This document shows positions 18,266 through 61,600 of a DNA stretch of 64,000 bases, piece by piece. The position numbers and the translations under genes were made by a program. The notes under the pieces were generated by a model. The model saw only the letters and a program-made list of their open reading frames with translations. It made no database searches and had not been told where the DNA came from. Origin of the DNA: Lethocerus indicus (taxonomy: Eukaryota > Arthropoda > Insecta > Hemiptera > Belostomatidae); contig JACDQD010000008.1 of NCBI GenBank assembly GCA_019843655.1, positions 12,372,442 to 12,436,441 on the forward strand, read 5' to 3'. The first letter of the stretch is position 1; each line of letters opens with the position of its first letter.

Positions 18266-18614
18266 ACCGGAGACTTCGAGTGAACCGCTGGAGGGGCCAA
18301 GTCAAATACTAACTACAGCCGGCGAAAACAGACGGGGAAGAACAACACTAAGTAGACAATAGGCCGCAACTAGCTAGGTAAACATTCCCAATAAGCGAAC
18401 GAAGATGAAACGTGTCTGGTAATACGACCTTTTGAAGAGGGGGCATATTGACTATTAAGTTTTTTCAATTAAAGATATAAAAGCAAAATATCCCCGAAAG
18501 TAAGGGCTTATAGTTTAAACTTCTGAATGTAAGACTAACTCTAGATATTGAAATAAATTAGGGCTTATTATAAAAGTTGAACATAGATAAAAACGTTCCA
18601 ATCGAAAGTCTTAC

Positions 18615-18665
18615 GGAAAATGACTTACGGTAAACTGAATCAGCAGCGTGTGATGATGGCCTTAC
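18615..18665 (-). other. Putative RS-exon 3 (37 or 51 nt)
   Basis: Downstream of the recursive junction, a second donor ACC|GTAAGT follows 37 nt later (donor at 18628-18623, exon 18629-18665). A third, TCC|GTAAGA, follows 51 nt later (donor at 18614-18609, exon 18615-18665). In the RS-exon model the machinery first defines this short exon and then chooses between the reconstituted donor and the downstream one. Normally it would be skipped. No coding role is claimed. Confidence 0.45.
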
Positions 18666-18678
18666 CTGAAAAAAAAAC
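18661..18678 (-). promoter_or_regulatory. Recursive splice site 3 (last in transcription order)
   Basis: On the minus strand the sequence reads TTTTTTTTTCAG|GTAAGG, with the junction between 18666 and 18665. A nine-T tract runs directly into CAG and is followed at once by a near-ideal 5' splice site, so acceptor and donor overlap with no exon between. A branch-point-like TTTAAC lies further upstream. This matches the recursive splice consensus (pyrimidine tract, CAG, GTAAG) known from long Drosophila introns. Use would join the upstream exon to 18665 and immediately re-create a donor. Confidence 0.7.
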
Positions 18679-21600
18679 AAAGCCGATGTTAAATACCGTC
18701 ATTCCGTCATATTATATTCTACAATTATTTCTGTATTTATCATACGAATGTTGTAAGGGAAAGTGAAATGATGCAGCGCAGTGTCTAATTTTAGATGCGA
18801 ACCAAGTTAGTTCGTTCCAAACAAAAATCAGAAGGATGAGGGGTCGTGAATTACGATGCACTCGGTTCAGTTCTGCACCAGGGTACGACCCCGGGTCGTC
18901 ACTCGAAAATAGAACTGTTCAGACCATTTCTGGAACTACTCCAGGCGTTAAAACCTGCTCGATTACTTGAGTATGCTGATGATTATACTCTATATCCCTA
19001 TTAAAGTTATTTTTCTTTTCCTGGATATCAACCAAAAAAACAAAAATTAGTAATAATTCTAGTTCTGGTCTGGAAAGCCGTCCATTTAATAGTAAAATGA
19101 GCCGTCACTACGGCAGACCCAGATTCCATAAATAATTTTGATTAATTTCGTATTTTTAATGTAGAACATTTTTTTTTAATTTCTGATCAAATAGAACTCT
19201 TATGAAAACAGCCAGTTCAAAATATGTATTTCCACATATTAGAGGGCCACATTAGGTACAGTACGTACCCGATCGGATTCCAACCCACATAACCCTGCAA
19301 GTAACAACCTAGGAATAGAAAAGGGAGCAAGGTCGGACGGGATAAATGAGATTCCCCGCTTCCCGGACGGTGGGGGCCCTTCACTGCCATGCCATTCCCA
19401 TAGGTGCCAATTGCGGCAATGCGCCCTTCCGCTAACCGCAGAGGATGCTCGCATTAAGCGCCCTCCCCGGCAGTCATCCCTCCGCCCGCCGACCCCAAAA
19501 CATCGGATAACGCCGCCTATCTGCCGCACATCCCGTCCGGTAGATAGTGACGTATGGATATGAGACAGACACGCAATTTCCCCGGCTGTTTCAACAGTAG
19601 GCCTTCATCGAAGGGTTGGTCGTACAACTGAAACGTAAATTTGTTGGACAGAGACCAACAGGAGCGAATTCCAGCGATCGGTATACGCCCTGTAAACATC
19701 TCCGTGTAAGTGCCAGAAAAGCCCCGTTTGAAGGGCAAAATAAAATATAACAAAAGGTAATGCCGCATCTGCCGTGAAGTCAGCGGGACCACGGCAAAAC
19801 GGCCTGCGGATCGTCGGTTCCCAAAGAGACTGAGCAGCTGCTTCGGTTGACGGCTCGTTGAACCTCACCTGCCAAACTGGGATTTGCCCATTCGTGGATT
19901 ATGTCCCTAGGGAAAGACCTTATCTGAAGGAGGGAATACAAAACGAAACCAAATTTACAGATATTTATTTCTCACGAATCATTGGTTTTTAATGTTTTTA
20001 TCCCCATATAATTCAGGTTCATAATTAAGTCCCATCTCCTTGTTTCGCCAGGTAAAATATGTTTTCGTTTATGATGTTTTTACTGTACACATCCTGCTGC
20101 ACGGATATCTCGCTAAACGTTTTTAAGCAAAAGGTGATAATGTTTACGGTAATGTCTGTGACAAATAATTCACAAATGGAAATGAACTAGTCCAAAATTG
20201 CACAAAGAATGCGCGAAACAAGTACACCCAAAAAGAACAAATAAATGAGCCAACAGTCAAAAGCATAATTTAATTTCTTAGGATTTATAATGAAAAATTA
20301 AACCCCCAGAATTATTCCAGACAAGAATAGTGTACAGCAATTTAATATAAAGACAGCAGCGGTGACGTCAATAATAACCGCGAGGTCCTAAAATTTAAAC
20401 GCCATAACCTGAGTCTTTTTATACATTTACCCTATTCAGTTAAATTGAAGCCTTCCTTTTAACATTCCGGATTAATGGAACACATTTTCCGCGATGGCTG
20501 CTAACTCGTTTTATGATCCAGACGAAAAATAGGCATAAAATGTACTAACATACGGAATTACTTTTTGCTTATTAATTTTCTTTATTTTTATCTGCGTGGG
20601 CAACCTGTACTGGGGGTCCTTAAGACTTTATCGGATGGATATTTTAGCATGATGGTGTTTATAGCATCAGCAGTAGCTGGTCAAAAATCACCAATATTTA
20701 CTAAATGTTTCAAACAAAGTACTCGTACCTTGATATTAATGTTCTCGAAATAACAAAAAATGTTAACATCATTTGACATAAAGACTAGGGCGACTCTAGT
20801 CAGGGAGGTTACTACGAATAAATGCCGTGGTACTTTTACTACAGTCCTACTACAGTTTCAACAGGCATTGTTCTATACAGACAATTTCTGCGGCTTATCT
20901 CATCAAATGAAGCCGGCTCACGCAAACATGTTTACCTAGGGATCCGGGACTCTTCTATGTTCGGGCAAGTAGTTGGGGAGGGGCCCTTCAGACAACTTTC
21001 AGTGCAACCTGTAGGATGCCCGGTTATATTTTGAGGTTTAACGAGTTGGTAAACGGAACGGTAAACTAAACTGTCACTCTCCTCTCACCTGGACTTTTTA
21101 CCACGTTTTGACTGAGACTTTTTATTGGTGAAATACCATTGATGATATTACAAGCCATCACGGACGCGTATTCGAGAATGCGATGCCGCATCAATACAGT
21201 AATTTGGTATCAGGAAAATATAATTATTATAAGAATTCTGTACTGTTTTTAAATACAGAAAACCCGATATTCAGGAAACGTTTCGTGGCAGAGAAAAGGC
21301 GGGTCAATTAACACCATCGTGTCGTGATCTTCCCCGTAAACACATAATACTCGACCCCCGCCTTAACTACTACCGTTTTCCATTTTTGTTTTCTAACAAT
21401 CTTTACTCATATAACAGATAACGTTCCATTCTATTGCACCAATATTCAGCGGAACTTTGCTTAATACCCTCAATTGCATAGGAGCATTCTTCTTCCGATG
21501 AAGTATACTCACCATGCAGGTAGTTACACGGGTACGTTCAAAATTCGAAATGAATAAAAGCAAATTACGAAGGGAAATGGTTCTGCTTCCTGCAATATCA

Positions 21601-24600
21601 TCATTCTCAAAATAGTACGATATTCGTGTATTCAAAATTAATTAATAGCATTTTCAGTAAGAATATTCATTGTTCCAGTGGCCACTGATTCGAACATCTT
21701 TCCCGGATACCGACAATGACCTGCCGGTAAACTAAAATGGGAGGAGTTTAAAATTAGAGTGAAGTTCCATATTGGAAGAATGCGGTGCAATTAAATATCG
21801 CGCGTAACAATGCAAATCCAAGTGGATCAGCCTGAATTAGAACCGTTAGGAGGAACGTGAGAAAACCCCAGATGGGAGAAAATGCGTGTCGGCCCCAACT
21901 CGGAAGTAGTTTCTATTCGCAAGAAAGTACGAACGCCTTCTTGGATATAGGCTAACTCGCTTTTATTACCGATAGTTTGCATAGAATGGGCCATACCAAT
22001 GGGGCTGAATATATAAGTAAACAACCGGGAGATTACACACATCTGAGAAGTACACGACTGCGTTGGCAACTGCGATTCTTTACATAACACGAAAAACTGA
22101 AAATATCAATTCAAAATGGAACAATGTAATGAAAATAGTTCACTGAATTATTTTATTTCTTTGATATTATTATAACTGTTCAGTGAAACTCCGTTAACCC
22201 ATTTTCTACTGTCTTAAATTAAGATACCTGTTTGATGGTCCAGAAAGGTTAGAATACAATACACTAATACTAAACTGAATCTGCATAAGACCAAATCAGA
22301 GTGTGGAGACACAGAATCGTATGAATTTTAACAGTTCTGAAAAAGACAGAAAGAAAATAAATTCAGAATTGGTTATATTTAATTTTGATAGGATGTTCCG
22401 AATCATCGCCGACCCATCCCACAATATATTTATATCCACACACTATCAAACTTCCGATTCGAAGAAAATTATCCCAAATTTGTTTCCAATTTATTTATAG
22501 ACAAAAGCTCAAGCGTATGATTTCAATTATACTCCTGGAACGTTGATATTTTATCAAACTTCGAATTAAAAAGATAAGGAATACATTCTATCAAAGCCAC
22601 AGACCGGGCAATTGGGTCACGGGGCAACAATGGATACAAACATTACTGCGTTACCCTTCAGTTCTGAATTAAGAAAATAGGAATCAGCGAATAGGAGATC
22701 GCGTGAGCCCGTATCAGTACTCGGGCGTGTGCCGCACGCGACTGGTTAAACACGGGCCAATTACAAAGACCGTCATAATAGGCCTACATTTAATATTTAG
22801 AGCCATTTTTGAAATGGGACACTAAAAACTCCAAACAGCAGTATCAACGCTATCGAACCGGACGCATTGTGTTCAAAGCCGCACACTATAACCAATATAG
22901 AAGTAAGCTATTGTAACAGAATATATTGTACGCCACAAAGGCCTACCTAAATTGCCCCGCAAGGAGCGAAAGATACCTGTGCTGATACAAAGCCGAGCTG
23001 CTGCTACGTGTTTGAAACTGATATTGAGCATGTAACACTAAACCTAACCTAACTGTAATGCCAAAAAATGTTATAAAAATAAGAACACCCTTCTGATAAA
23101 ATTATGGTTAATAATAATAATAAAAAGAATTTTTTATGATTAAATAAAATGGAATAACATTTTTATTAAACTTGATTCCATGCTTTGCACATATGACACT
23201 GATTCTGAATTAAAATAATTATTATAATGTTAAATTAAATCCTATCTACAAATTATGATTCAAATATTCATCATCAGTATGACATCTGGCAAGTCTTTTC
23301 TTCAGTCTACGAGAAGATTTTATTCAAATACCCATCATGCTGGCAGCTGTTATCCGAACGCACTTAAAATCAGCGGGTTTATAAATCTTCGCCCGGTTGG
23401 CGGGGGGGGGGGGAGAGCGGGTAACGACAGCTCGTAAAAGAGCGGTATTCCATACGCTTTCACTTTCTTCTATAATGGAAGGCTCAGTGTCCCGGGGACC
23501 CGGGCCAGTCCCGGAAAAGCACGAATTAAATTTTCATTAATGCGGGACGACGTAAAAAGCTTTTGTGCACCCCCGTGTAGGAGTAAACCAACAGTAAATT
23601 GGTTTCTTGGACGTGGCTTCTTTTGTGCCGGACCCAAACTCGGATAGACGGATTTGCCCGGAAATCCAATTTTGGACGTAAGGTTACTTTCCCCGGCGGG
23701 AGAAAGAACTTCCTGAATCGGTTAAATGGATACCTTATTATGGATAATTCTTCCCGAAATAAATTGTATTCTTTCTCAATATAAAAGGGAGCTACAGTTC
23801 AATTTCGTGAGCAACAATTTATGACAAGAAATACAATATTCATTATACTACCGCGTAGTGGCTCTGGCAATGGAAACTCATAGAAGCCCTATTATTTTGA
23901 AATTAATTCTTAATTCTTCTCTCAACTGTAAGTAGTCTGAATAGTGCTGATCAGTAGGCGTAAAGAACTGAATAAAGTGAAAAGTCATAACCGGTCTGAC
24001 ATGAGAAAACAAACATGATGAAATAGAGAATCGCAATTGTGACGAAACCACAGAAGTATTTACCATGCACCCGTAGAAAGAAAAGATAATTATTACAGAT
24101 GTAAAATATTTGAACGTCATGGAACTACGGATTGTAGTTAACAGATAACGAAATGTGTTCAAGTTCAAGCAACGAGTCTATTAATCACAAAAAAAAACAA
24201 AAAAAATATATTTAAAACACCTTAACGTAAAAATCACAGTAACTGACGTAATTATCCGTGTACCTCAAGAGAATTCCCGGTCAGTCACGAAATATTTCGT
24301 GTTTCTGATAAAACGAGATTTAAACGATTTAGTCAATTTTATGCCACTTCTTGTAAAAATTTTCATTCAACGAAAAAGAAATGTATATAAAAAAAAACAA
24401 AGATTTTCAAGGCCTTGAAATCGAGTAGACCGTAAATCCTCGAGCCGGCAAAGGAAACATCAGGGCCAAAGCCAAATCAACTCAAGTAGACGGTTACAAG
24501 ATTCGACATTGAAACTTTTGTAGTTAATGTTACAGATGATGATGATGGTAGAAGCTCATTAACCAGCCAGATAATGCGAAGATCCTCGGTTGACTTCCTT

Positions 24601-27600
24601 CCATTGTTTGACCAAGCGTAAAGCGACTGAGAATGAAACAATGGTCTAAGAGCGTTAAGAACTGTTAACAGCAACACTGGATGAGATAAAATACTGAACA
24701 AATATTTTCAGAGCTCCAGTACGCGAGGACTGTTTAACGGTTATCCCAGCATCCAAATGTTTTAAGAGATGGCAAATTTGTACCTAGCCTGCCTAACTAG
24801 CTTCTCTTAACATACACAGTGTCACAGCCCGGGACTACTAACAATATAATTATGCTAAAACCATTATCCCGCAGGGTGTAATTATTCGCCAAATTTTTTG
24901 AAATGTCTACTAATCCTTTTCTTCGTCCTACGGTCAGGATATTACTAAAAAAACCCACGCAGGGTTTACTTTATTTCCAAGGGCGGATAATCGTTGGTTG
25001 ACGGGAGAGACCTCCCGTCTCTCCCGTATATACTCTTTATAGTAACAAACGGCTACGGTGCTGTTGAGGTGACCGCGCTTAATTTCTCTTAGATTGTATA
25101 CCTGAAAAGGACTTCCCCCCGTAGGCAAGATAAGCCGCCGTACATAGCTATCGGCCTACTGAATGGCAATTAGAACATATCTGCTCTTAAGAACCGAGTC
25201 AATGTACTCCCATCAGAGTTCAGGTTCAGACTTCAAGGTTTCAGAATAATATCTGTGGCCCATTATTTGTCTATAAAGGGATGCTGATTTATTAAAAAAT
25301 GCGATTGTCGGCGTCAAAGTTATGGTGTTGGAATAAATGATACAGGTAAGCATATTCCATCAATACAAAGAAGCCATAATGTTAATAAGAATGATGATAT
25401 GACCTGTGATAACATAAATTGAAAAGATGTATAATGTAGATTATCCACTGGATTTCTAAAATATTCGTTCGTACAACAACTATGTGCAATATTTCATAAT
25501 AACTACTGAAACAGATAATAAATATTACTTTGGATCATTGTCCACCAATAAAATATAAGTAGTATTTGTCGCATTGTTTTCCTTAAAATTCCCAGAACAA
25601 TAAAAACAAACATTCTTAAAAAAACCTACTCACATTCATATATAAAGCCTAAACTTAACAAGATATTGTAGACTAACATGAATAATCTTCATCTAAGGAT
25701 TTATTAAATAAAAAAATTAATTGTTTTCCAGTGGTTTTCCGTGCCAAAATCAAATCATCGAGTGAAGAAGTTAATAGAAATAATAAAGACAGTTATAATA
25801 ATAAAACTGATTGAATCAGGACACATCAATATCAATGTCGTAATATTAATAGGAAGAATCCGGATTTATCAACCTTATTAATACCTAACCCATATCGGAC
25901 AATTGTGTACAGGATGTAGTAAAACAACAAACAAAGAAACAATTGCATTTTTTTCAGTCATTAAACAATTTGATGCAAGTCATTAGACGGTTGGCCGGCG
26001 TGTTTGATCTTAAAAAGCGAAACGCTGCCTTGAGGTTTCCGATTTAACAAATGATGCGTTCCCGGTACCGCTCCACTGCCATTAATTCGAGTTCCTAGAT
26101 TAAATCTAAACCGAGCACGAAACTGCCCCGGCCCGGGACAATATGACGAATGGTCCTTCTTTTCTTCCTTTCCTTCCTACTGGAGGTACATTGCTTAATC
26201 GACTCCGCTCTCTGTATTCGAACTTTAATTAAACGCAATGCACGACTTTGTATTGTATCGTATTGAATACGACCGGAGAAATAGAAAATGCCCTCACCCA
26301 ACATAGGTATTTGAAACGATTTGAAAGAAATTGTTGCGAGGAAGTGTCTTGTCGCCAACTTTGAAGCTGTGATTCATCTTCAAGTCGCCAATGATCACAC
26401 ACTGAGTTTGTGAGCCAACACAAAACAGAAAAATGCGTACAGTAGTACAGTCTGCTCTTTCTTTCCCCAAAAATTGAGTAATTAAAACCTACAATTAATT
26501 TTTCCTATTTAGTTCACTTACATAGTAAAACAACAGGCTATGAATAAAATCATTTAAACTAGTTTGGAGTACCTGCTTGATGGCCTACTAAAACTTTCGC
26601 TGGGGTAAAAAATACATGATAATTAGAAAGCCTGAAATTTATACTGCATTACAGAAGAAAGTTTAAAGTATAGAATCTAAGAATTAAAAAGGATTCTACA
26701 TGAATTTCCGAATATGATCTTTTATTTTACACTTGTACAATTAAATGATGACCTTCGTGTATACGACCTTCAATACGCTGGTTGCATCACACCTGTATTG
26801 TAACTTAGCATGAACACAAATTCAGATATTTCAAAGACTCCTCATGGTTACAAGATGTTTAAAACGGCAAATGCCTCATTAGAGTAACTTAGTGTCAAAG
26901 GGGGATGTTAAGCTCGTAAGAAACGATAATCCTCTGCTGAAAGAAAGCCAGACATAACTGATTCCTATCTCTACAGGCCTTCTAATAAGCGGCTTGACAC
27001 GTGTTAATTCCCAACTTAACTACCTAAAAAAACAACGCTGATTCTTATTTTATTTTTAGAAGGAACGCAAAAAAATAAAGTTCACATTGGTCTGGCTCAT
27101 TATGCGTAGAGTTACTGAACACACCCTTTAAAAGAGGTGTTACAAGAGGTACTCATGTTCTGTACATAATGTTGTTAGCGTGACATAAGGGAATGGTAGA
27201 CTGTCTATATATAAAAAGGTGATAAAGCCCGAAATACTTTAAACATTCACAGTCAATATTAATTGTCAAGTGCTACACGTTCTGAAGCTGTAGTATCACT
27301 GGGTATACTTCAAAAAGGAAAGCATCAGGACATGGAAGCATGAAAAAAACACCAATTTCTTTTAGTGTAAATTAGACAAATTTCAAGCAATTGTTTCGAA
27401 TGAAGATGTGAAAAATAAGAATTCCGGCGCGATACATTTAACATAAAGCACTTTGTGAAAAGAGAGGTACGATTCTCACAGTGCTTTCCATACAGAATTA
27501 TAGAACTAAAACAGCGGCAGTTGGAACAAAGAAATCACCCGAGATAATAGTTTTTTTAATCTGTCGTTTTTCAAATCCCAATTTTATTAAAGAAAGATCA

Positions 27601-29990
27601 CCTGTTTGGGCTAACGCCCCAAATTACAGGGCGAGACCCAAAGACGAGTACTAATCGAATTGATGTACCCCCCGTCTACTAAACGAGGGAGAATATAAGA
27701 TTATGTTAAGTACCCTCCGACGGCAGGAACTACACGACCGGCATCCCCGTGGGCGTTTACAAGGTTTTTAAGTGTTAAATGAGGGGAATTTAAAGAAAGG
27801 ACAGTTTCGTTAATGAGGGTGCCAGGAAATCGAATGGGTAACCTTCGTGTCTATATTTAAATTCGATAAAATTCTAAACTGTAACTGAACTAATAGAAAG
27901 GAAAGCCTGGCAGTATTACGTGGCAACTGTTCGCTTAAGGCAGAAGAGCCCTTTTCAATATATACATGCTGAAATAAATAAATGTTATATATACCCATAT
28001 ATGTGATATCACGGGTGGCATCAACACTAACTAGTCCGCCAATCGCGAAATTTCTGCTTATGTAAATTTTTATAATTTTTCTGCATATTTCCGTATTCAA
28101 TATTCCTGCTATCTGACGCATCTAAGGTATTTGTCATCCGAGTCGTCCACTCTTTGATTTCCAAATATTGGGGATAAGTATGAAATGGAGATTTTGAAAA
28201 CGTTATGAAGTAGCAAACGTCTGCCACGTGTTCATTTACCTGCGTATATTACACAATTACAAGATAGTCCGTAACCCCACCATACATACGCCATGTTAAA
28301 AATATTCAACATGAATGTTATCTGATGTTTCTTTAATCTGATCAGTTACAAATGGCCAAGGCAATTCTGATAACGCGAAAGCGGTACTGGATATTAGAAT
28401 GCCGTCTCAAATTGCACACGGCGATGAAGAAGTTATAAGTTATATGGAGATATTGAAAAAGAAGATAACTATAAATCTAGTACGCAATCTCTTATGGGAC
28501 GTTCATTACAGTAACTAAATAATTGTCCGTACTTTTCGTTCTGATCGGAATGGGCCGTTCTTCAAGAGATAATCTGAACGGAGTGGCGGAGCGGATTTCA
28601 TAAGCATCGGGGATTCAGTCAACATATCATAAACCGGTTCCTTCCATTAAATATACTTCAATTATCTTGTTTCGTAACACCGCCTCTGCCTACCGGGCGA
28701 CTGCTATCCCGCCATAGCCAACCGTTTGATTTATTCCGCCAGGGATTTAAATATTATCTGATAATTTATAGTCCATGCGAAGGTATGGAGAACTTCCTTA
28801 AACCCTCGAAAGGGAAATATTGTTGCTCAATAGTTATCGATATTAATCTCGTGTATGGAATCCAACGTATATGGTTCGTTTCACCTTTGATATAAGAGCA
28901 AACGAAGGAATACTAATCAGAATTCAAGCCAGAATAATAAAATGTCCTTCAACAACTAACGCAGTTTAAATGGATAATATTCGTTTTAATGCCGGTAATT
29001 AAAATTTGCGGAAGAATAACTACAAGTGGCATTAAGATTGAGATTTTAACTAGATATCAGAAAAAAACGAGGACGCCCTTCTTTCCTCCCTCAATCTTGC
29101 GCTTCGTTCCAAACTTTAAATTAAGTGAAAGTTTAGAACGAACTCAGGACATATTTATGTCTTTTGAAGATCACTGAGGAAAAGGAAGTGACAAATGAGT
29201 GTCGGTTTAAAATGTGTTTTAAGAATGTAGAAATTAATTACCTTCGAAAGACATCGGATCTCTAGTAAACTAGCATGGAATAACATAATACAGGAATTAA
29301 CAAAAGGGCGCGGAACAAAGTATATGGAACAAGCCCAATGGATTTTCACAAACTATGGTCACAACTCCTGATACGAACAAGAATCTACAGTCGAATATGA
29401 AATAGCTGCAGGCCAATATAGAATTTAGTTGGCAGTCTATAGGCATAAGTCAAAATTATAAAAATATAGACGTAAGTCTCTTATCTTCTTATCTAATATA
29501 GAGGAACAGTATTATTGACTGCCTCGCCATCATTTAAGTTACACAAAACACACCCACAAAACAATTGTGTCAACAATTAGCGGAGTTCCACGAGGTGTTA
29601 AAAAAATGCAAAGGCGTCACGCCAACTTCATCCGGTGTTTTACCCCGAATGGTGATTACATTTAGTTAAAGAATCCCAGACCCTGAGCCTGAAGGATTGA
29701 AATGTTAAGCGGCCCCCGAGTTGTCACATAGGTTATAGCTTCAGTGACGGGAATAAAAAGTATAAACAATGGCAGCATTAATGCCTCTCCGGAAGCAGTC
29801 GTTGGTAACAACATTCGCGACACATTACCACCAGTTATCTGGCATAGACTTTGCAATAACGGACAATGACCTCGTGTACCTCTCTGAAAAAATGACTTAG
29901 ATTAAAAAGTTAAAAAAGAAAAACAAATCGAAGGGAGTTTCTAATCATGAAGTTGGTGAAACAAAACACACTTCTAGCGTTGGACGCGTG
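18679..29990. other. Long noncoding AT-rich stretch
   Basis: No supportable gene in more than 11 kb. Points of note are a GC-richer block at about 19320-19530 and 19790-19870, a second CRE palindrome TGACGTCA at 20363-20370, a 12-G run at 23402-23413 and a perfect 16-bp palindrome at 24286-24301. Minus-strand PPT-CAG|GTATAC at 25102/25101 is a weak splice-like match. Confidence 0.5.
24286..24301. repeat. Perfect 16-bp palindrome
   Basis: CACGAAATATTTCGTG reads the same on both strands with no spacer. The next bases (TTTCTG) extend a resemblance to the left arm of the hairpin at 31414. It could be a dimer binding site or a remnant of the same repeat; chance is possible. Confidence 0.5.
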
Positions 29991-29999
29991 GTAACCGGG

Positions 30000-30270
30000 C
30001 AGGATACCATTTATTCTACCACCCCGATCAGTATTTTCCCATCGCCGCCTGTAAACGGCCCCTTTCTCTCGTCTTGCGTTTCTTGCGAACCCGCTGAAAA
30101 AAAACTTTAGAGAGGCGCGAAACAAACATTTGTTCTGAGCAGATCGGTCTCGATCTATACACCGGGGGGGATAGGAAGGCCCCGTGGGACCGGCTACGGG
30201 CGACGGACAAGGTCGAAGAAACAATGAGGCAAACCGAGAGACAACGATCGGTTACTTCACAATGGCACAC
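30000..30270. other. GC-rich island
   Basis: About 270 bp of GC-rich DNA open on the minus strand in two overlapping frames (29910-30224 and 30028-30270). The translations are arginine/serine-rich and unrecognised. I see no exon-like boundary with good splice sites, so I do not call an exon. Confidence 0.35.
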
Positions 30271-30831
30271 CCCTGTCAGGAAGTAAGGAATAAAGGGGAA
30301 CGGGGACGCAATCTAAGAAACTGCAAAAAATCGCAGTACTAATGAAGAATGGAACCACGTTTGTTGTGATGAAATTTTCCTGAATCTCTTTCCTTAATAA
30401 GCACCACTTAAATTTACCTTACAAAAGTAAAACAAGCAATGACTGAATGAGTATTGGTTTAAAATTGAAGCCATAGGGTTACACTTAACGTTTCTGTAAT
30501 TAATTAAAATTTATGATTTATTACAAAGCGATAAGCTATATAGACAAATAATCGTGTGCGCTCCTTATATCGCCAAATATTTCAAATAATCATTCCCCTG
30601 AAATACAACGCATTATTAAAAATGTAAGTTTTTACGATAAGATTGTACCAAATTATCATAGGTCATATGTTCAAAGTAGGTTTATAATCTTCCTAGCAAA
30701 CACATTTACAACTTCATTCACTACTGTATTGTGACGATGCTTAGAATGAGTGATGAAACATTTCTAGGTTAAATCTCAAATTTAATTGTCGACTACAGTC
30801 GGTTATGGTAGGTCGTTATACTTTCGCTAAC

Positions 30832-31320
30832 TGCACATATAAAACAGGAAAAGGGGGACGAGGGAGCCGTGTATACTTGGCGGAGTGTGCGTGCGTACGG
30901 AGGTGGCGCCAGCGGGGATGACACGAGGGGAAAAGGAGGAGGGATAGAGAGGCCAGTCCGGGGGAGATCAATAACTACGCTCCCCTCCCCCTCGACACAC
31001 CGCCCAACCACCGCCAGTATCACTCCCTCTCCCTCGCACGCTCTCCGGCCTCATCTCTCTCTCTCTCTCTCTCTCCCCCCTCTCTCGCTCTCTTTCGGTC
31101 CCAGTAGCGTCTCGAGCACACACACCGACCCACGATTATCGGGCTGGCCCCGGATGAAAGGCCCGCCGTGGGAATTGCGCGGGGTTGGGGGAACTCTCGG
31201 AGCGAGCGATTGAATACCGACGGTGCCCCGGTGTTTGCTCAAGGGGTGAGGGGGAGAGTCGTGAGCCGCTCTGATGCGCCCGGCTGGAGAGATGCCGCCT
31301 TAGAGGTGAAAATAAGTCGG
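30832..31320. promoter_or_regulatory. GC-rich, CT/GA-rich island, possible regulatory element
   Basis: The largest GC-rich island of the central window. It begins with an AT-rich TATAAAA-like sequence at about 30837, continues through G-rich and C-rich runs, and includes the CT microsatellite at 31054-31075. On the minus strand the latter reads as GAGAG repeats, the GAGA-factor core. Long frames on both strands are low-complexity readings of these tracts. A promoter or Polycomb-type element is conceivable, but no initiator at the right spacing was found. Confidence 0.25.
31054..31075. repeat. (TC)n microsatellite followed by a C run
   Basis: About ten TC units run into CCCCCC, followed by further CT-rich sequence to about 31100. 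Homopurine/homopyrimidine tracts like this can form H-DNA. Confidence 0.9.
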
Positions 31321-50400: not shown

Positions 50401-51250
50401 CGGTTCTCCGACAGTTTAATTAAGTCACATCTGGAGAAAGAACCAGTCGTGCAGAAATGTGATGATGCTATCCTCCGAAGACGTTGTCGGCTACATGTTC
50501 CGAACCCTATGACTGGGATGTTTAAATCTACGACGACAATCCGATTAGCGTCAGAGAAGACGGGACATCTCAGCAAGCTAAGTGAAACTAACGAGGCCAA
50601 CAATGTTAATGAATTGGGCTTGCTTCAATTAAAGCCAATCAAAACAGTAATACTAAATCAGCCGTGTCTTACCACTAATCCATCTTATAGGATTAGAGAT
50701 TCTTTCTAAATATATTATTCATTTATAATGGTTTTCAAACCTTTACAGACATCAGAATAAAATTAAGAAAAGTTTACATACGTGCATACATTCTCACACA
50801 TTCAAAAGTTGATGCTTCGACGGAACCAACCATATCAAGCAGCCTGTGTGATTGAACTTTTTGATTCGTTATAACCGCTTCCATGCTCGAGTACTTCAAC
50901 ATTAAAAGTAAATTTCATTCCCATAACCAAATAAAACAGTTACACAGTAATTTAAATGTGCATGTAGGATATTTAAGGGCTTTGTACACTCGTTATTTGA
51001 TTGCAATCTTTTCCTGTGGAGATTTTATAGATCGTTCATGCGTTTTATATAAATTATGATACCGACATTTGGTCCTGGGATCGTATATTTTTCGCAGTCT
51101 TATCCAAAGAAATGCCTATACCTTCTGAAAGCACAACCTGTTGCATGGAGGAAAGTGTTGATATTTCTTGCACCCTTAGACGTGGATCAATTCCTTATTG
51201 AACTAGAGTATTAAAACCAATTGCCTAACGACGGTCGTCGGCACAGTTAC
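47413..51250. other. Noncoding stretch with a GC/GA-rich island at 48.5-48.8 kb
   Basis: No supportable gene. The 157-codon minus frame at 48511-48984 is fed by a GA-repeat tract at about 48700-48740 (reading as a Ser-Leu repeat) and has no recognisable domain. A 44-nt microexon candidate is listed separately. Confidence 0.5.
50241..50284 (-). other. Possible 44-nt minus-strand microexon (weak)
   Basis: A good donor CAG|GTAAGT (donor at 50240-50235) is preceded 44 nt upstream by TTTTTCTCTGAG|, a pyrimidine-rich but GAG-type acceptor. The interval contains a CCTTCG/CGAAGG foldback. Unlike the three recursive sites there is no pyrimidine tract directly before the donor. GAG acceptors are inefficient, so this is a low-confidence call. 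Confidence 0.15.
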
Positions 51251-51454
51251 TAATTATATTACAATTAATTCATTTTTTAATTAATTATAATTAATCTTCT
51301 TACAAGATTCTCTCGCTTGATCAGTTGAATTTTCCTTCAATTACAATTTTCAATTAATTAGTAGGCTTCCAACTTGATAGCAAGCCTGATTCCAAATGTT
51401 GGAAATTTGTGATCGACGAATCGTCGGGTAATTAAAATTAATTGTGGCTAATTA
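51251..51454. promoter_or_regulatory. Dense TAATTA cluster, homeodomain-type binding region
   Basis: Seven TAATTA hexamers start at 51251, 51278, 51282, 51288, 51355, 51429 and 51449, with further ATTA cores between and just after them. By base composition, well under one would be expected in 204 bp. The sequence between them is not a simple repeat. TAATTA is the preferred core of Antennapedia-, Engrailed- and related homeodomains, and clustering is typical of autoregulatory or Hox-responsive enhancers. No transcription start is seen near it. Confidence 0.5.
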
Positions 51455-52379
51455 AAAACACCGAAACGAACTCTCTTGATATTAACAAGCCCAATTAACA
51501 AATTCTGAACGATATCGGTTTATTGATTTGATCAGTCGAGAGAACGCGGCTGCTTCACTTCATACCCAAGTCCAGACTTAATTTAACGCCCACTTTCTCC
51601 CATTGATATTCAAACAACTAAAATTCAATATGGAAATTAATAAAAAGCAAACAGTTCAAAAGTGCCGGTAGGATGAAAGTATAAGTATGAATTTTTTTCA
51701 TTGTGAAGAGTAGGGGCAGCATATGTAAAGTTGTGAAGCGTTTTGAAATTAGTTGCCCTGAGAGGCTGTTGAGTGAACAATGAGTTGTTCAATTCAAAAG
51801 GGACTGGATTTTACGTTACCCCCCTTCCCATGCGGCTAATTACACAATCCCATATTACTCCTATTTCCTTCCGGCTTCTACACTTGTACGATAAAAGGCA
51901 GGTGTGCGCAATCTCGAAAAGATGATCGGCAGGTGTCTATAACCAGAAAAACAACAAGGAGGATGGTCCTTATTTATCATCGAACCTAATAAAAGGAGAC
52001 ACAAAATCCCTATCAGATTAAATGAGATATTTTCGCGTTTATCAAATTTGCTTTATAATGTCATACATACATAAAAATACAATTGTAATATCAACATTAT
52101 TCCAATATCCTCACTACAATTGCGGACAGGATGGTTCATCGGCAACAGCGATGTGCTTCACTAATCTATTGATACAGAGCTACTGAGCATGGCGAGAAGG
52201 CGGAACCGTTTTGCCAAATCAGCTAGTGGAGACAGAAGAACCCAAGGATAAGCATGTTACAAATCTTCGCTCATGAATGAAAAGATCTCTTAAAACAATA
52301 AGAATGCAGAAACACGATATTTGAACCGACCGGCCCAAATAATTGGCAAGTCTTATTTATTTATTCAAAATGACTCCAG
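51455..52379. other. Noncoding spacer
   Basis: AT-rich DNA with no gene and no repeat that I can support. Confidence 0.5.
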
Positions 52380-52840
52380 GTTCTGGGCCTTAGTGCGAAC
52401 GTTAATTGAGATAAAAGAGAACGGGGGGGGGGGAGAGGAGGAGTACAAAGAGGGCTGGAAAGGGGGATAAAACATTTTGTACCACCGGAAACAAAGGGCC
52501 GGGCACCGGAGGCGACGCTTGAACCATGAGGTACGGCCCGATGAAAATAAAACCCTCCCTTTCCCCTTGTCCAAACTTTCTCCGCCCCGGCGAGGAACAA
52601 TGAAAACAAGAAAAAGTACAAAACGCTAAAAAATAAAAGGCGGGGGCCGCGGAAAGGAGTGCGACTTTAAAGCAGGAGCCCGCCTCATCTGTTGTCGCGG
52701 CGGCTTATAGAGAGTCGAGGTGGCGACTGGAGGAGGGACAACAAAAAAAGAGAGAAAGAGGAATGAAGAGAAAATAAAAATAAGGCGCCGCCGGGGCAAA
52801 TCCTCGGTCACCAACAGAGCCCAGAGAAATGCCCCAGGTG
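52380..52840. other. GC-rich island with G11 run and purine tract
   Basis: An 11-G run (52423-52433) in a GA-rich tract is followed by GC-rich DNA and then a long purine-rich stretch at about 52730-52790. Frames on both strands (up to 101 codons) are low-complexity readings. The G-runs could form G-quadruplexes on the plus strand. Confidence 0.45.
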
Positions 52841-53736
52841 CCGACCAAACCTGTGCAACTCGACACTTTACCAGATTTGAGTCGGATTTTGTGAACTCAA
52901 ATGCTGCATCAAACAGTGGAATATAGAGCACTAAATGGCTAAAGAATTAATCTGGCTTCCATTTATTATTATATATGGGTTCCTGCTCTCATTTATTATT
53001 AATTTATTATAATGTATAAATGTTTAGCAGTTAACTCAAAAACAGAACATTGAATGGTAACGTTTATCATTATGTACTACATTATTAATGCATTCTATTT
53101 GAACATTCTTTCTTCATCATGTGTTAAAAAAATAAAATACACCTAGAAGTTATTACTAAATGCAATACATTTTCTGGGACCAAATATTATGAGAATCTAT
53201 TAACCTCGATTTATGTTAACTGGTAGTGGGAAATTTACAAGATGCCCTACATCGAATATCTATGACAATGAAAATAATGTAATACAAAATAAGTATTCGA
53301 AACGAATTAAGAAAATTAAACTAGTAGTACACAGATTATATCCCCGATCTGACATGGTAGTCTCGTACCCAATTCACAAAAAAATAAAAACTCCCGTACT
53401 CGGTAGCTAGGAGGCGGACAAATTTGGCCGATAAAGGAGCTCTAAATATTGGGGTCGGCTCCAGGGAGACTATGAATAATGAGGGGGGGAGGGTTCCGGC
53501 GCTGGTAACACCTGGGGCACCCGTGTTCCCTCTCTTGTAGAAAAATAAAAAAAAGACCGGTGGGAGGGGGGGTTCGAAATATATAGGTCCAGCTTTGTAA
53601 TCTTCCCCGCTCTGGCCGATAAATCACGCCGGAGGAAAAAACTGAAAATGTTTCATAAGCAAATTATTCGGGATCTGGCAATGGAAGCGGGCGGGTTCGT
53701 CGATTTCATTCCGCTTAGCGCCTTACGAATTTTTTC

Positions 53737-53765
53737 GTAGAAAAAAAAGGGACGGTTTTTTCTAC
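53737..53765. repeat. Perfect 10-bp hairpin with 9-nt loop
   Basis: GTAGAAAAAA (53737-53746) pairs exactly with TTTTTTCTAC (53756-53765). AT-rich and therefore of modest stability; function unknown. Confidence 0.6.
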
Positions 53766-54745
53766 AACGCGTATCTTTATTTCCCATACAAATATCTCAG
53801 TCTGTACGCTTTTAATGGATTACATAACACCTTGAAAAACGTATTATATATTTATATATATAATTTGAACAAAGGCATTTAAAAGAAATTTTAGGGAAGC
53901 CTCCAAGGACTCCAAGCACCTTGGGGTTCTTGTTCATTTGTTTGCTAGTATTCAAAACTATAATGTATAACAACATATTACATAATTTTTAGCCTCAAAA
54001 TTTAAACTAGTGAAAATTAATTAATACTAATTTCCAAATATGTTTAAGAGTAATTTTATTTTGGAATTTAATTTCATTTCATAGTATATAATTCTGATCT
54101 AACATTGACAGGAGGTTTAAACTGGGATTGGAGTTACATAAGGAAGCCATTCTTGAACCTGAATAAGAGCACGGGGCTCTGTTACATACGGAGATTGATA
54201 TCTGAATACTTTCATCTGAATGTCACGACCGTTTTAAATTCAGAAGGCGGTCACCTCCGGGCCGTATACACTTTCTCCGCGTGCAACGGTGAAAGTATTG
54301 CTCCGTTAATTCGTACCGATACGTGCAAAGATATTTCCATCTTTATCATACACAACTGATTTCAAAACAGTTCGGATAATGAATTAAAACCGAAAGGCGG
54401 AATGGGCAGAATTCCGAGATTAACGGCGCTTGAATTAACAAAAAGGAGAAGCAGAAAATGTTTCCAAAGATAGAAAAAGTTGAAGGAGGACTTTCCTATA
54501 AAGTTTTATCTCGAGTTTAAGACGAGATAGTGGGCAGAACTGGAGAAAAACAAGAAATGAAGAGGGGAGGGAGGGACACTCTGCACACTCCTACCACTGG
54601 GCAAAAAACTACTTTCCTGCTGTAAGAAACTTTCTTCACTGCAAACACTCCAAAATTTACAAATAAGACTCGAAAAAAACAAGACGTGAACAATGTTTCA
54701 TCCATAAGCCGTAGAACTAATTTGGTTCGATATCATATTAAGTAT

Positions 54746-54783
54746 ACCGTACATTTCGTGTCTCCTCTCGCTGGTTTGGTCTT
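54746..54783 (+). repeat. Dispersed repeat, copy 2 (no insertion, no hairpin)
   Basis: Matches 31414-31459 at 35 of 38 positions once the 8-nt insertion of that copy is removed. No matching right arm is present downstream, so this copy does not fold. It shows that the left arm and loop of the 31.4-kb hairpin belong to a repeat rather than to a unique RNA. Confidence 0.75.
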
Positions 54784-56599
54784 TTGCTTTCAACAAAAAG
54801 CTACCCACTGCTTACATTAATAAATTACAATTTTACAAAGTGCGTAAAAGGATTAGGTTCTGTTTGGCTGGTACACGCCGAAAATCCCCTTAAGATAACA
54901 AGAGAACTTTTCACGCTCAATAAGTTCTCCTGCCCCCCCCCTTCGTGGTCCCTAATCTTCGGAAATGCGGGTTCTGACGACAGAAAGGGAACAGATGGGC
55001 GGGCATCTGTGGGTCTTCTTCGCCCTCATCGGCCGAAACTCGCCCAGTGACGAAAGAACCTGACACTCTGAAATTTATTGGATTCCCCTGTCTCCGAATT
55101 CGTCGGTTCTCGTGAAGGCGGACTGAAATCTGGTTGGAAAAGCTTACATCCGCCACGGACCAGACATTCTTGTCCCTTCTGTCCCAAGTCCTTTAGTTTT
55201 AACGGACGGACAGGAAATATCGTAAATTTGCCTCCACGATGAATTTTCATATTCAAATATCCTTTTCCCATATGAGTTGTGAAAAAATATTATATTTTTC
55301 ACTTCACTACGGAAGCTCTGTGATTCAATCACTTCTTTTACCATGTCGGTCATATGTTGGCCCACCGGTGCCTACATCTAAAATCTCCTTGTTAAAGCGA
55401 GTGAAAAATGTCAGCCCTCCAGTTGTTATCGGTATTATTTTCCCGATCATTTAAGCTAGTATTCTTACAGTAGTACAGACGATTAGAAGCAACGATAAAT
55501 TAATTAATAGAAATGCCCAGATTACAAAATCACAGGGATCATCATCCCCGAGGGCACTCTACCGGAGGCATCTTGTGTCAGCGGTGATCGTTTTGAACCA
55601 TGGTGTCTTAAACCTCCTTTTATTATTCTTTTCACGTATCAAATGTCAGGTCAAGTGATTATTTAGTTAGGACAAATATAAATCAATACTAATAATACAG
55701 ATGTTTCTCCAACTCTAACGGTATGTTTGAAGTAAAGATTGTATCGGCGAAATCGACCCTCGGCACGATAAGGCGGACGAATTATCTTGGACAATCATCG
55801 CAAAACGGTTCGCAATTATGGAACTGCACGAGTTCAGAGGCAGTTCAAATAGGATCGAAATCCCGAGCACTTCCCGATTGAACTTGTATGTATCGAAGTT
55901 ATTGCACGGTTTAGCAGTCTCGAATTCCTAAAACCATCGAGCCTTATTAAGAAAATACCGGTTTAATGAAATTTACCGCATTCTAATAATATCTAACGGG
56001 ACTTAAAATCAACCGGAGGTAAATTGGACCAGGCCGAACGAGCTAAGAGCTCGGGAATTAAAAAACGCGAAAGCAATTCACTTCATCGTAATACGTCAGA
56101 TGTTCTTCGGTATAAATTCCTCGGGTTCCTCACAGTTCCCATAATTTTGATAATTCATTTCAAATAAGCTAACTTTTTTTTGTTACCTAACGTTTTCATA
56201 CTCAACATCTAAACTCACCTATGTCACAACTTATATTTCAGTACGTATAGTTTTTGTACCATAACACTATTCTGTTCATACTATTTAATTACACTATCGA
56301 ATTATTGAATATCTGAATGACCCTCAAAGCATTAAGTTATAAAAATGAAGGAGCACAGGTTAGAAGCCGGATAATTTGAAATTTATTTAGGCCAAATCCT
56401 TTTCATTCAGGTTGTTAATTTTATATCAAGTATAGAAGGATACGGGACAATATTTATAATAATTTGAGTATCTAAATTCGTTTAAGGTTTAATTATAAAC
56501 ACAAATACTTCAACGGATCTAAAACATTCTTCCGCATTGGGGCTTTAAATAACGAAAAGTAATAATGCAACGGTAGATGGTGGGCGGGAGACTGCACCC

Positions 56600-56649
56600 C
56601 GAGCACTATTTTCAGAATCGTGATCCCGTCTCGGATCACGAACTGCTCG
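56600..56649. repeat. Two-part hairpin
   Basis: Inner perfect 9-bp stem TCGTGATCC/GGATCACGA (56618-56641, 6-nt loop) is enclosed by CGAGCA (56600-56605) and TGCTCG (56644-56649). The internal loop between stems is lopsided (12 nt against 2 nt), which is unlike a typical pre-miRNA. Confidence 0.55.
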
Positions 56650-58595
56650 TTATAAGAGACCAATTAGCGCCGATTATACATTGCGGGCCCACTATTTTTT
56701 CTCTTGGGAGTTCTCACGCGGTTAATGACGCGTGGAAACGCACCTCCGGCTAACGAAGGACTTACCGGTCACAGTTCGACACCGTTCCGTGTAGTCTCAG
56801 GAAACACTAACTTTAACATAAATAGCAGCCTCTTGATAGTCCATTAACGGGTCCCTTCAACGTCAAACGACTGACACACAGAACTGACAAGACAGGGATA
56901 CAAATGTCCGAAACTTAAAAGATAGGTCCTTTGAATTTATGTGGATAGAATTTAAGGACCGTTTTCATAATTTATCTCAATTCTTTAAAATTGAGATGCG
57001 GCATTCCCAAAGGCTTAATTATAACGACACTCGTGTAAATTCAGTATATCCTCTCATAATTCGACATTACCCAGTCAGGATAAAACTTAAAAGTATTACG
57101 GAACACCAAGGAATAACATTTTTCAGCAAATAAGGTTTTTTATATCAGCGAAGAATGATCCGGGTGAAGTAAAATTTCGTTTCAATTAATAATTTCTGAA
57201 TATACAATAATATTATGTCTTAAGACTCCCCCTGAGGTACCCTGAGGTGTCATGATAAAATAAAATATTGGTCAATCAATGCCTTGTTTTCATGGGAAAT
57301 GGAAAAAAATGTTTTGTGGCAACGAGAGCTTTTTGAATAGGGCCACCTACCCCTATCGCCACCTCTACATCCGCCTCCCGACCGTCCTTTTTTATTGTAG
57401 TTCTGTTGTGTCCACCATGTTGTTTCGGCTCTCCGAAAATTACTCGTGAATATTTTTCGATAGATTCACTGGTCCCATGACTGATTTCCCCTCCGGCTAA
57501 TGAAGACTGGGGTTGGTGACAACCCGCTATAAATTCCTGGAGAAACCTAAGTGAACTAGTTCCGAGCGCTGATTGATTGTATGTATAATATTTTTCAATT
57601 TTTTACTGCCCCTTTGCTGTACATTTGTTAGAAAATAGCCGAAAAATAGCACATTAATAGTCAGACAAAATGATTAGCATCAACCATCACGCAACAACAA
57701 AGTATTAGGTAACGAACATCATCTTCCTTGTAAATGCTCAGTAAGTACAGATGCGTCAAACAAGTTTAAGAAGGTAATAAAAAGTACGTTACAAAACCTA
57801 AGCCGGCGTTTCTCGTACATTTTTCAACATTAACGACGAATAAATGGCGCGTACAGTTAGACGACCTGGGCACAGACCGAAGTCATCAGAACAACGCATT
57901 GATTTACGACGCCATTAAGGTTTGGGAGTTATATCTACTTCTTTAATAAACCCTAAGATCATCGCCAATCATTATTTGGGCCTAACGGTGTCAAGAATCT
58001 TACGGAATCAGCATTAGAACACCTCCACGTTACAGGGATTACCGGGCAACGGTACTGGAATCGTACACCGTTTTTACGCTTGAAAGCATCGAAACAGATC
58101 TGCGCAGTTCCTGGAGGAAAATTCCCTACCAAATAGCGATGGAAATATCTAGAAAATACCTATCCCGGACACTTGCGGAATTCCGAGTTTAAGTAGCAAT
58201 AAAAAACGATGGTCCGGAACAAAAGCGTACGGGAAACAGAAATTCTTCACGTTTCCCCCCATGGAATTTAGAAACGGGACTTCATCGGGAAGGCAATAAT
58301 TAAACAGGGGCCATGAGCTTCTTACGGAGAACATTCGAACACTCGGTGTCGCTTGAACGAACATCGGAATGGTCTGCAAAAGCACGGAATGTCACAAATT
58401 TGTATCTACCCGTTCCGGATTTGTTATTATTAGTGCAGAAAAGCGGGCTGAACCGGGGAAGGCCTTTTCGCAACTTACGGCATACCTCTATTAAACAATA
58501 TTTTGTGAAATCGAACGGAACGGAACTGAAGTTAACAAATGCATAAATTTGCATGGGGAGGCGTAAATAATGTATATGTCAGAAATTTCACTCAC

Positions 58596-58643
58596 TGACC
58601 CAGTTGATCCGTCCTTTTTGCAGCGGTGTCAAAACAAGCTTAC
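58596..58643 (-). other. Putative RS-exon 1 (48 nt)
   Basis: After the recursive junction, a donor TCA|GTGAGT follows 48 nt downstream (donor at 58595-58590). Of the three minus-strand frames only one is open. The plus strand across this interval carries an acceptor-like CCTTTTTGCAG (ending 58623), which I treat as coincidental. Confidence 0.45.
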
Positions 58644-58656
58644 CTGAAACAGAAAA
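58639..58656 (-). promoter_or_regulatory. Recursive splice site 1 (first in transcription order)
   Basis: On the minus strand: TTTTCTGTTTCAG|GTAAGC, junction between 58644 and 58643. Two strong branch-point matches, CTAAC and CTAAT, lie about 20-30 nt upstream of the AG, making this the most complete 3' splice site of the three. The donor follows with no exon. Used first, it would join the upstream exon to 58643 and prepare the next step to 39330. Confidence 0.75.
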
Positions 58657-61600
58657 CAATTAGAAGTTAGGAAAACGGTTTTTCATATCACTGAAATGAC
58701 TCGTTCAATACATTCTCTCCGCCTTTAGTGTTTTTAATCTGCTGGCGTTCAAATTTCTTATATAGTGAGCTAATCATTATTTCATTGCAGTAAAATTATT
58801 TTCAAACGTTCCAAGGATTAGATATCTTTGTCATTTGCTTACCTAAATAATAACATTAAACACTTAACCTGCTAGATGTATACAGGCCGATATAATTCTT
58901 AAATTCATATATACATTATATTGGTAAGATAAACATCGATATATCTTAAAGCTGTATTAACTAATTTTGTATTCTGATTTAGTATTAAATTTTAGCTGTC
59001 AGATGAAAATAATCTTCTAGCGCTTCTGAACTATTGGGATTATAACTTCTACTACTTAAGACACGAAAATCCCCTACTTCTCATCCTATATCGCTGCCTC
59101 TTATATTGCTGTAAATAAATAAGTCCGCAACGGAATAATAATCGCAATTATAGTGAAGCAAAAAATATTTCTTAGATTTCTCTAGATAATTTAAGCCAGC
59201 GGATTGGGGCCTATTTATTAATAACCAATTAATATGTCAATCTGGAAAAATGAATATGAAATGTTTTAATCGGTTCGCCCACTCTACTTCCCACATCGAA
59301 TGGTACCGACTGAAATCGAGAACTCTGAGAAACCGGAGACACAACAATGGCAATAAATTATTTCTTTATTAATGCAAACTGCGGTTTGTTTATCGTCCCA
59401 GGAAGCCAACCCCCCCTTACCCCTGAAAAAAAGCGAAGTTATGGGAGCGGATGAATAAAGAAATTGTTATTGGGGAAATAAATTCATGATAAGGAGGCGA
59501 TAAATTGACGACGAATTAATGCGCGAAAGGGTGTATTTCAATTTGAAAGCGACGGGGCTGACTGAAAAATCGGGCTCGAAATTTACGACCGCGCCCGGGA
59601 AAAAAATCCCGAACAGGTGGCCGGGAATTAACGGCGAGAACATTTTAATTAGAAGACTCTTTGATGTAGAACAATTTGAGCGACCACGGCCGGTATTTTG
59701 GGACGGCTCTATCGGACACCGATAGGCAGGCACTAGGTAGGCCTTCCAAACGCCGTCGAACTGCGCGCTGTTATAAAACGCGTGTTACGCGCGCTTAAGA
59801 GCTTGCGAAATAACGATCACGAGTGAGGAATATGATGCGATTCGTCAGCAAAGTGCACATTCAGAGGTTTGTAATTTGCAATTTTGCAGTTAATGGAAAA
59901 GTGTGCAGGGGGTGAGGCGCACGACATTTGCCCTTCAATACTTCTAAATGGGTACCACTGCTAACCATCTGAGCTTTTCCAATGAAAATTATATCAAGAG
60001 TTTCAACAGGTTTCGGTTCTATGTATCTTGAGACTACACTCCTAATTTATCTGAAAACATTTCTAAACACCATGAGGTAATAGATTAGGGTTATAATGAC
60101 CAAAGAATTTCTTCTTAATTATTTATGTACGGATATCACGCTTTGAAAATGTAAATAACGTAAGCGCTTCTTTGTTGAATATGAGATATTACACAATACT
60201 ATATGAGATATTTACATATTGCTTTATGTTAAGTATAAGAAACATATAGGTCAGATATGATAGAAAAAATAGCCGAGTCTATCAATCATAGAGACGGGAG
60301 ATAATGTTAATAGTAAGAGGAATGCCAATCGGAAAAGAGCCGCCAACAAAAAGCGGGCGGCCCCGAAACGGGACGTTGAGTGTTGGCGTTCCAGAAAAAG
60401 CAAGGGGCAAATGAAAAGCCGAATTAGTCGGCTTCAGCGCGTAGCTTCTTCCTTGACGAATGACCGCCCCAACCATCAATCACCTTGGAGTTCATCATTA
60501 ATAGAGTGAAAGACAAAACGGCCCACACGATTCTTTTCGGTCGTGACGCGACTCTGCTGCCTTCATTGTCGGCTCGGCTATGGCCATCGAATTTACTTTC
60601 TCCGTACGCAACACTCCTCCCAAAAATTTTCTTCCTGAAAGTAACTCCAGGTTGCGACAAAAAGGCCCACCTCGCAAATTTTTAAGACACGGAAAAAAGA
60701 AGAAGAAAGGTTCAAAGATTTACGAATGCTTACTAATAATTAAATAAATCTAACAAAAATTATCACAAATAGGTGTAGGAGTTAAAAACTTAATATTTTT
60801 TCCAAACGGCATAAAAATTTGTCTAAACCAAAGTTCGCTAAGTTGTAACTACACAAAGGAAAAGTAGGCTGAGGCCTGGTTACAGAAAGTAGAGTTATTT
60901 ATGATGGAAAATATTCGATATAGTAGGTCGAAAATACAAATTCACGGAGCGATGTAATGATTGGGAGCCTTTGGCGCGTAGTACAATGTCAATTGGGAGG
61001 GGAATGAAGGCCGCGGGAAACACTTCTCTCTCCGGGCTCAGAACTAATTTCATGATCGAGTACGTGACGCGGTATGGCCCCCGCCAACGTTACAAGGCCA
61101 TTGGGATAATATAACCGGGGCGAATGCGGAGGAGTTCCCTTCTCGGGACGCTAGGGACGAAACCAAATTGCCGCGCTTATAACCGGGAAAGTGGTCCCAA
61201 CGGACGTAACTGGCGCATCTAAAATACTCTCAATCATAAGACTCATATAAAAACATAATCGTATGTAAGTAGAATCGTAGAAAGTACTAGTCTATGAGAA
61301 AAATGCAGAGGAAAAAATCTGTAGTCAAAAATAATCATAATAGAGGTTTCTGTAACTTTAAGATAGTGAATAGAGGGAAGGGTGAGAACGGGAGAAGGAA
61401 TGAAGAAAGGACGATGAAAAAGAAGCTAAGATAAGGGATTTTCGTGACATCTCAATTTTCGAATGGAACACAGTGAATGGGAACGGATCTTCAATCGTGG
61501 GAGGGGAAAATAAATAAATGCGGCAGAAAGGCGTCGTACGCCAGTTGAATAAGAAGTGGTTAACAAGTACGGCGGAGGCTCCAGTTCGTTACCCGGTCCG

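Follow-up and report, generated by a model that had tools for sequence, protein, structure and literature searches.

A predicted long intron of Lethocerus indicus with likely recursive splice sites at nearly even steps

Introduction

To our knowledge, recursive splicing has been shown experimentally mainly in Drosophila and vertebrates. In vertebrates, work by Sibley in 2015 reportedly describes definition of an RS-exon followed by its skipping via a rebuilt donor, and the mechanism proposed below resembles vertebrate recursive splicing in both steps, exon definition by the RS-exon and then skipping. Vertebrates differ in having few fully suppressed intronic sites, nine being noted beside thousands of possible expressed RS-exons in the available text of PMC8605326.

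In Drosophila, recursive sites are found in most introns over 40 kb, with non-random placement and pieces of ~9-15 kb (PMC6110457, available text). The ratchet points of Ubx, kuz, Bx, Ten-m and hundreds more, as far as the available descriptions go, fuse an acceptor to a donor around AG/GT (the slash marks the junction throughout), as at the locus described here. Two further features of the fly introns are also predicted at this locus: several sense-strand sites per long intron that leave similar-sized pieces, and a cryptic RS-exon that is short and closed by a weaker donor ~50 nt on (PMC6110457 and PMC8605326, in the parts available). The step length differs, being 19-27 kb here, read from DNA alone, against a typical 9-15 kb in the accessible part of PMC6110457.

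Among the literature matches listed we found no experimental recursive splicing in non-fly insects; PMC2773006, in its available portion, predicts that large introns contain RP-sites in bee, beetle, mosquito and sea urchin. The same portion reports a sense-strand excess of fused sites in introns >50 kb, 4-fold in bee and 8-fold in beetle, and we see a similar excess on the predicted sense strand here. It gives densities by species, whereas the arrays, the spacing and the RS-exon statistics below come from the present genome. The mechanism is already known; what is new is the locus with its six even steps, together with the statistics that this genome gives for arrays and RS-exons.

Results and Discussion

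Three fused splice sites in the window

The window is a stretch of 64,000 nucleotides (C8:12372442-12436441) of a 426.8 Mb assembly, G000, which is larger than the D. melanogaster genome. Positions are counted from its first letter, and those left of it count down through 0. The CpG observed/expected ratio is 1.13, a value ill-suited to a vertebrate.

A sequence-only reading of this DNA had placed three minus-strand junctions at 58644/58643, 39331/39330 and 18666/18665, and all three are present at those positions. Each fuses a strong 3' splice site to a strong 5' splice site in the form (Y)nNYAG/GTRAG. A fourth, weaker site lies close to the first.

58838..58847, minus strand: weaker TTTAG/GTAAG site with its junction at 58843/58842, lying 199 nt upstream of 58644
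58639..58649, minus strand: candidate ratchet point 1, TTTCAG/GTAAG, junction 58644/58643
39326..39336, minus strand: candidate ratchet point 2, TTTCAG/GTAAG, junction 39331/39330
18661..18671, minus strand: candidate ratchet point 3, nine T then CAG/GTAAG, junction 18666/18665

All splice scores were computed with generic, hand-entered weight tables. The 18666 site has the top acceptor+donor score in the window, with TTTAAC ahead of its nine-T run and 51 nt upstream without AG. The 58644 site ranks second (19.3); a CTAAC branch-like word at 58670-58666 stands before TTGTTTTCTGTTTCAG, and 45 nt upstream are free of AG. The 39331 site ranks third (15.4), with 48 nt free of AG and the weakest of the tracts, shorter and modest in pyrimidines (10/20). 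These AG-free stretches add little, because 11 of the 44 minus-strand TTTCAG words, the three sites included, equal them; a stretch of at least 45 nt precedes 10% of all minus-strand AGs. The 58843 junction, with an AG-free stretch of just 18 nt, was left uncounted as a ratchet point. Repeats of at least 30 nt joining 58644, 39331 and 18666 were sought and none was found.

As had been read, the word CAGGTAAG occurs five times in the window (4 minus, 1 plus), and the three copies with a pyrimidine tract upstream are all minus; the other two, at 25345 plus and 50241 minus, are without a tract. The earlier rough expectation of about two copies proved slightly high: dinucleotide shuffles give 1.23, and a count of five was reached in 0/100 of them. 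The junction at 50241/50240 minus is the window's best-scoring donor (CAG/GTAAGT, 12.8), has no acceptor tract, and could terminate an alternative first exon.

The fused sites might be products of chance, in that a T-rich minus strand holds common acceptor-like words and three of them precede GTAAG in a window picked for that. The composition gives some ground for this: the plus strand has an A>T skew of 0.074, and TTTCAG occurs 44 times on minus vs 26 on plus. We found three sites in the window scoring at least as high as 39331. Markov sequences of order 1 to 4 gave a mean of 0.32-0.50 such sites on both strands, with a maximum of 3 (60 simulations each), and it was order 3 and order 4 that came as far as three. 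Against chance, GTAAG follows TTTCAG on minus in 3/44 cases where 0.043 are expected (P 1.2e-5), which makes it the commonest pentamer there; on plus it does so in 0/26. After any AG on minus, GTAAG shows no excess (5/3137 vs 3.05 expected). Furthermore, TTYAGGTAAG has 4 matches, all minus and 58843 being the fourth, where 0.40 are expected and 0/100 shuffles reach 4; under a local order-2 null for the minus strand the mean is 0.26, and at least 3 were seen in 0/150 runs. With the flanking and genome-wide evidence below, we consider chance a very unlikely explanation.

Strong donors are also unevenly divided between the strands. Those scoring at least 10 number 12 on minus vs 5 on plus, 3 of the 12 being the fused sites themselves, and those scoring at least 9 number 21 vs 9. 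In bee introns donors are slightly depleted (PMC2773006 Table 3, in the part available), whereas the minus strand of the window is richer in them. Open reading frames of at least 100 aa number 24 on plus and 26 on minus, vs local null means of 10.9 and 11.9. This excess is a leading point against the ratchet reading, and the strand bias of strong donors also counts against it.

The series continues outside the window

The same-strand series carries on beyond the window at a nearly equal step. Three further minus-strand fused sites were identified in 60 kb of left flank.

-3942, minus strand: fused site TTTCAG/GTGAG, from the flank scan
-23878, minus strand: fused site TTTCAG/GTGAG, from the flank scan
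-50737, minus strand: fused site TTTCACAG/GTAAGC after TACTAAC and a long pyrimidine tract, from the joint-score scan

The site at -50737 (ACAG/GTAAGC) escaped the initial YYYAG pattern and was recovered by the score scan. Thus the earlier series of three was right as to strand and too short as to number, which is six once the flanks are scanned.

The joint-score scan covered 324 kb on both strands, with 1715 AGGT sites, and seven of these scored at least as high as the weakest of the three originals (39331). Six are minus (18666, -23878, -50737, 58644, -3942, 39331); the seventh is on plus, at 103976, with a LUC7-like gene close by. Plus 211067 comes next in rank and lies slightly below the threshold. 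At the Markov rate, six minus sites in 150 kb have a Poisson P of 7e-5, a value to which the three sites that led to the search contribute. The three flank sites played no part in finding the first three, and they alone give a Poisson P of 0.007, which again speaks against chance.

The window spacings of 19.3 and 20.7 kb given earlier are exactly 19313 and 20665 bases, and two gaps so similar have a chance of 0.033. Over all six sites the steps are 19313, 20665, 22608, 19936 and 26859 bases, dividing the predicted intron into similar pieces. Over the first five sites the spacing has a coefficient of variation (CV) of 0.069 (P 0.0004 under uniform placement), and over all six of 0.139 (P 0.0005, conditioned on the chosen sites, three of which had led to the search). 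Between 58.6 kb and the end of the strand skew near 90-95 kb we found no fused site of comparable strength, which would make the first step 30-40 kb long and speaks against the reading.

Taken together, these data suggest that 58644, 39331, 18666 and the three continuing minus sites likely act as ratchet points, the sites of recursive splicing. We consider it highly probable, judging from the sequence, that they belong to one very long minus-strand intron removed recursively in multiple steps of ~20 kb.

A predicted long minus-strand unit with no detected coding exon

An excess of A over T along the plus strand is taken here as a sign of minus-strand transcription; the literature matches listed for strand asymmetry dealt almost exclusively with mitochondria. 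Here A exceeds T in 56 of the 64 1-kb blocks of the window (skew 0.074) and in 135/150 blocks from -60 kb to ~90 kb, vs 47/92 in a comparison stretch at 112-204 kb. The sign has its limits: isolated 8-kb blocks beyond the skewed region also lean to A, e.g. at 200 kb, and a sense-strand T excess was seen at only 4/8 other fused sites of the genome. From the skew we infer that the locus is transcribed, in a minus-strand unit that begins between ~90 and 100 kb and extends left past -60 kb.

1..64000, minus strand: predicted continuous intronic sequence (plus-strand A>T, no Pfam domain above cut-off in minus 411-64000 or plus 14401-63990)

The sequence-only reading had named a minus-strand gene boundary between the sites as evidence against itself. 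No such boundary was found: the skew is unbroken, and a Pfam scan of minus 411-64000 in three frames gave nothing above cut-off. The same holds for a Pfam scan of plus 14401-63990, and the two sub-threshold matches from both strands had E values of 0.092 and 0.089. A PDB sequence search with minus 14001-29000 in three frames gave no match, the period-3 signal in the window pointed to no convincing exon, and the Rfam and tRNA search found none. Over 160 kb of the minus strand, 28 exon-like pairs were candidates and none was judged convincing; neither flanking exons nor a host gene came to light. Searches of phage records with a 7-kb piece and of viral contigs with a 31-base piece found nothing, which is what nuclear DNA should give.

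To the right, a plus-strand LUC7-like open frame was found at 100351-100845 (L012:6351-6842), with a PDB match to 5zwn_Y (E 2.6e-8). This open frame, of a splicing-factor gene, lies directly outside the skewed unit.

Predicted RS-exons at the locus

The sequence-only reading had stated that no exon lies between the sites. This holds for coding exons, none of which was detected in the parts scanned, and probably fails for short cryptic exons, which 18666 and 39331 are predicted to head.

58479..58643, minus strand: possible RS-exon headed by site 1, length 165 nt, donor GCC/GTAAGT, weak evidence
39247..39330, minus strand: predicted RS-exon headed by site 2, length 84 nt, donor CCG/GTAAGA with score 9.5
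18629..18665, minus strand: predicted RS-exon headed by site 3, length 37 nt, donor ACC/GTAAGT (GTAAGT at 18628-18623), from the donor scan

A short RS-exon with a weaker downstream donor is predicted at 18666 and 39331 and is doubtful at 58644, where the alternatives are 158 nt (GAG/GTATGC) or 48 nt (TCA/GTGAGT, weak). On minus, 1.8% of positions attain the donor score of 39331 within 20-100 nt. Outside the window, -50737 has a 52-nt candidate exon ending CTG/GTAAGA and -3942 a 54-nt candidate exon before AAG/GTAAAT; at -23878 no RS-exon donor of the kinds sought was found within 420 bases. Within the window alone the RS-exon donor signal is weak (Fisher P of 0.012 within 20-100 nt and of 0.035 within 20-200 nt), and 7/44 (20-100 nt) or 13/44 (20-200 nt) of the minus TTTCAG words match the weakest of the three sites. 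In view of the genome-wide counts below, the sites probably head short cryptic exons, which corrects the earlier reading.

The same AGs could instead be acceptors of ordinary short exons (cassette, untranslated or lncRNA) that start with GTAAG and are retained in the mRNA. Possible terminal donors do lie downstream of every window site, the 54-nt exon headed by -3942 is open in one frame, and expressed RS-exons are known, as in Ubx (PMC8605326, available text). In the genome subset described below, 69/168 RS-exons are a multiple of three. On the other side, the length of the 37-nt exon is not divisible by three, and the 84-nt exon (donor at 39247) has no open frame. The upstream donor also beats the exon's own at three of the three window sites, the ratchet donors scoring 11.4, 11.7 and 11.7 vs 7.7, 9.5 and 6.4 for the best RS-exon donors (58644, 39331 and 18666, respectively). 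In fly RS-exons a stronger upstream donor is linked to skipping (PMC8605326, in the part available). We therefore regard retention as ordinary exons as highly improbable, and prefer recursive removal.

A genome-wide class of fused sites

The recursive-splice reading is further supported by the rest of the genome, where the motif is enriched, stands in same-strand arrays and is accompanied by RS-exon donors. The word TTTCAGGTAAG occurs 845 times vs 252 for the reversed word, and TTTCAGGTGAG 644 times vs 154 for its reversed control, numbers that are all inflated by contigs that partly duplicate one another. By the reversed control, ~252 of the 845 would be background, which leaves room for chance at single sites.

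The background falls steeply once a second donor is included. A fused site with GTAAGT 15-44 nt past the junction occurs 93 times vs 2 reversed, and with GTAAGT 45-74 nt past it 102 times vs 2, so the combined class has 195 members vs 4. The 18666 site (C8:12391064-12391112) is among the 93, and this membership argues against chance at the locus itself. The false share of the donor-bearing class may be about 4 in 195, with the reservation that the reversed control is unmatched for acceptor strength; an acceptor-matched pattern would be TTTCAGATAAG plus donor. A zero-length exon as the only kind at fused sites is rejected in view of the RS-exon donor enrichment.

Lengths and strands were compared in a subset of 168 sites, obtained from the 193 matches listed of the 195 by removing 23 off C1-C12 (mostly duplicates) and two repeats. 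Of the distances searched (15-74 nt), the RS-exons occupy a defined part, with none under 25 nt, a mode of 35-45 nt and a median of 45 nt. Neighbouring sites share a strand in 22/22 pairs at up to 50 kb, 37/40 at up to 200 kb, 13/16 at 200-500 kb and 40/100 beyond 500 kb. Similar agreement was found irrespective of the second donor: among the first 100 TTTCAGGTAAG matches listed (C1 and part of C2), 18/21 pairs within 100 kb are on the same strand, and C1 has a run of six. With the TTTCAGGTGAG matches added for C1 and C2 to 20 Mb (75 of 100 matches listed), 48/56 pairs within 100 kb agree among the matches listed; agreement is weaker, 15/20, for mixed GTAAG/GTGAG neighbours. Of the same-strand gaps up to 60 kb, 1/32 is under 12 kb (C1 and C2, among the matches listed).

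Two other arrays were observed. On C1 at 8667464-8828458, seven fused sites follow one another on the plus strand, six with GTAAG and one with GTGAG, at gaps of 14-40 kb. On C8, minus-strand RS-exon-bearing sites at 25707169, 25802184 and 25897195 are 95015 and 95011 bases apart, and their exon sequences differ.

Well over 100 candidate sites can thus be listed from DNA alone with the same grammar: a strong acceptor fused to a donor, a short RS-exon and same-strand arrays. A fused site with a second donor 15-74 nt on offers a sequence-only route to ratchets in unannotated genomes, at 4 expected in 195 by a reversed control unmatched for acceptor strength. With such sites one can test outside flies if definition by RS-exons is ancestral and if the length of the steps is under constraint.

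Proposed mechanism

The junctions, their strand and their spacing are read directly from the DNA, as is the genome-wide enrichment with its RS-exon donors and same-strand arrays; from these we infer the splicing, the order of the steps and the ends of the host intron. An upstream exon, expected near 90-99 kb, would be joined to the AG at 58644, and the adjoining GTAAG would recreate a 5' splice site. The recreated donor would then be spliced to 39331, and in turn to 18666, -3942, -23878, -50737 and finally the next exon, expected left of -51 kb, so that no intron sequence would be retained in the mRNA after the last step. At each junction a short cryptic RS-exon would probably be defined first, with the AG as its 3' splice site; at the clearest sites, the second donor that pairs with this splice site lies 37-84 nt downstream. 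Once joined, the stronger upstream donor would prevail and the RS-exon would be lost.

The close same-strand neighbours found elsewhere are mostly 14-46 kb apart and rarely under 12 kb, and the step here is near-constant at ~20 kb. A tentative idea, which we put forward as possible and rather unlikely, is a spaced ratchet in which recursive sites are kept at a near-constant step and RS-exons above ~25 nt, intron length being metered by selection on the span of one step.

Other observations

At 1899-2178 a 10-nt unit (GGAAAGAACC-like) is repeated in tandem, inside an open frame of 329 aa on the minus strand. Two copies of a 146-nt element, 97% alike, lie in 34452-34798 and 38748-38893; one copy is flanked by two identical 95-nt direct repeats, and the element is perhaps a small insertion with a duplicated flank. 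In the right flank, 208001-216000 is a block of 64% G+C amid ~39-44% G+C. Elsewhere in the genome, a COX1-like fragment on a large contig (L035, G000:C2:2338820-2339434) is readable with TGA as W, looks arthropod and is likely a mitochondrial insertion in nuclear DNA.
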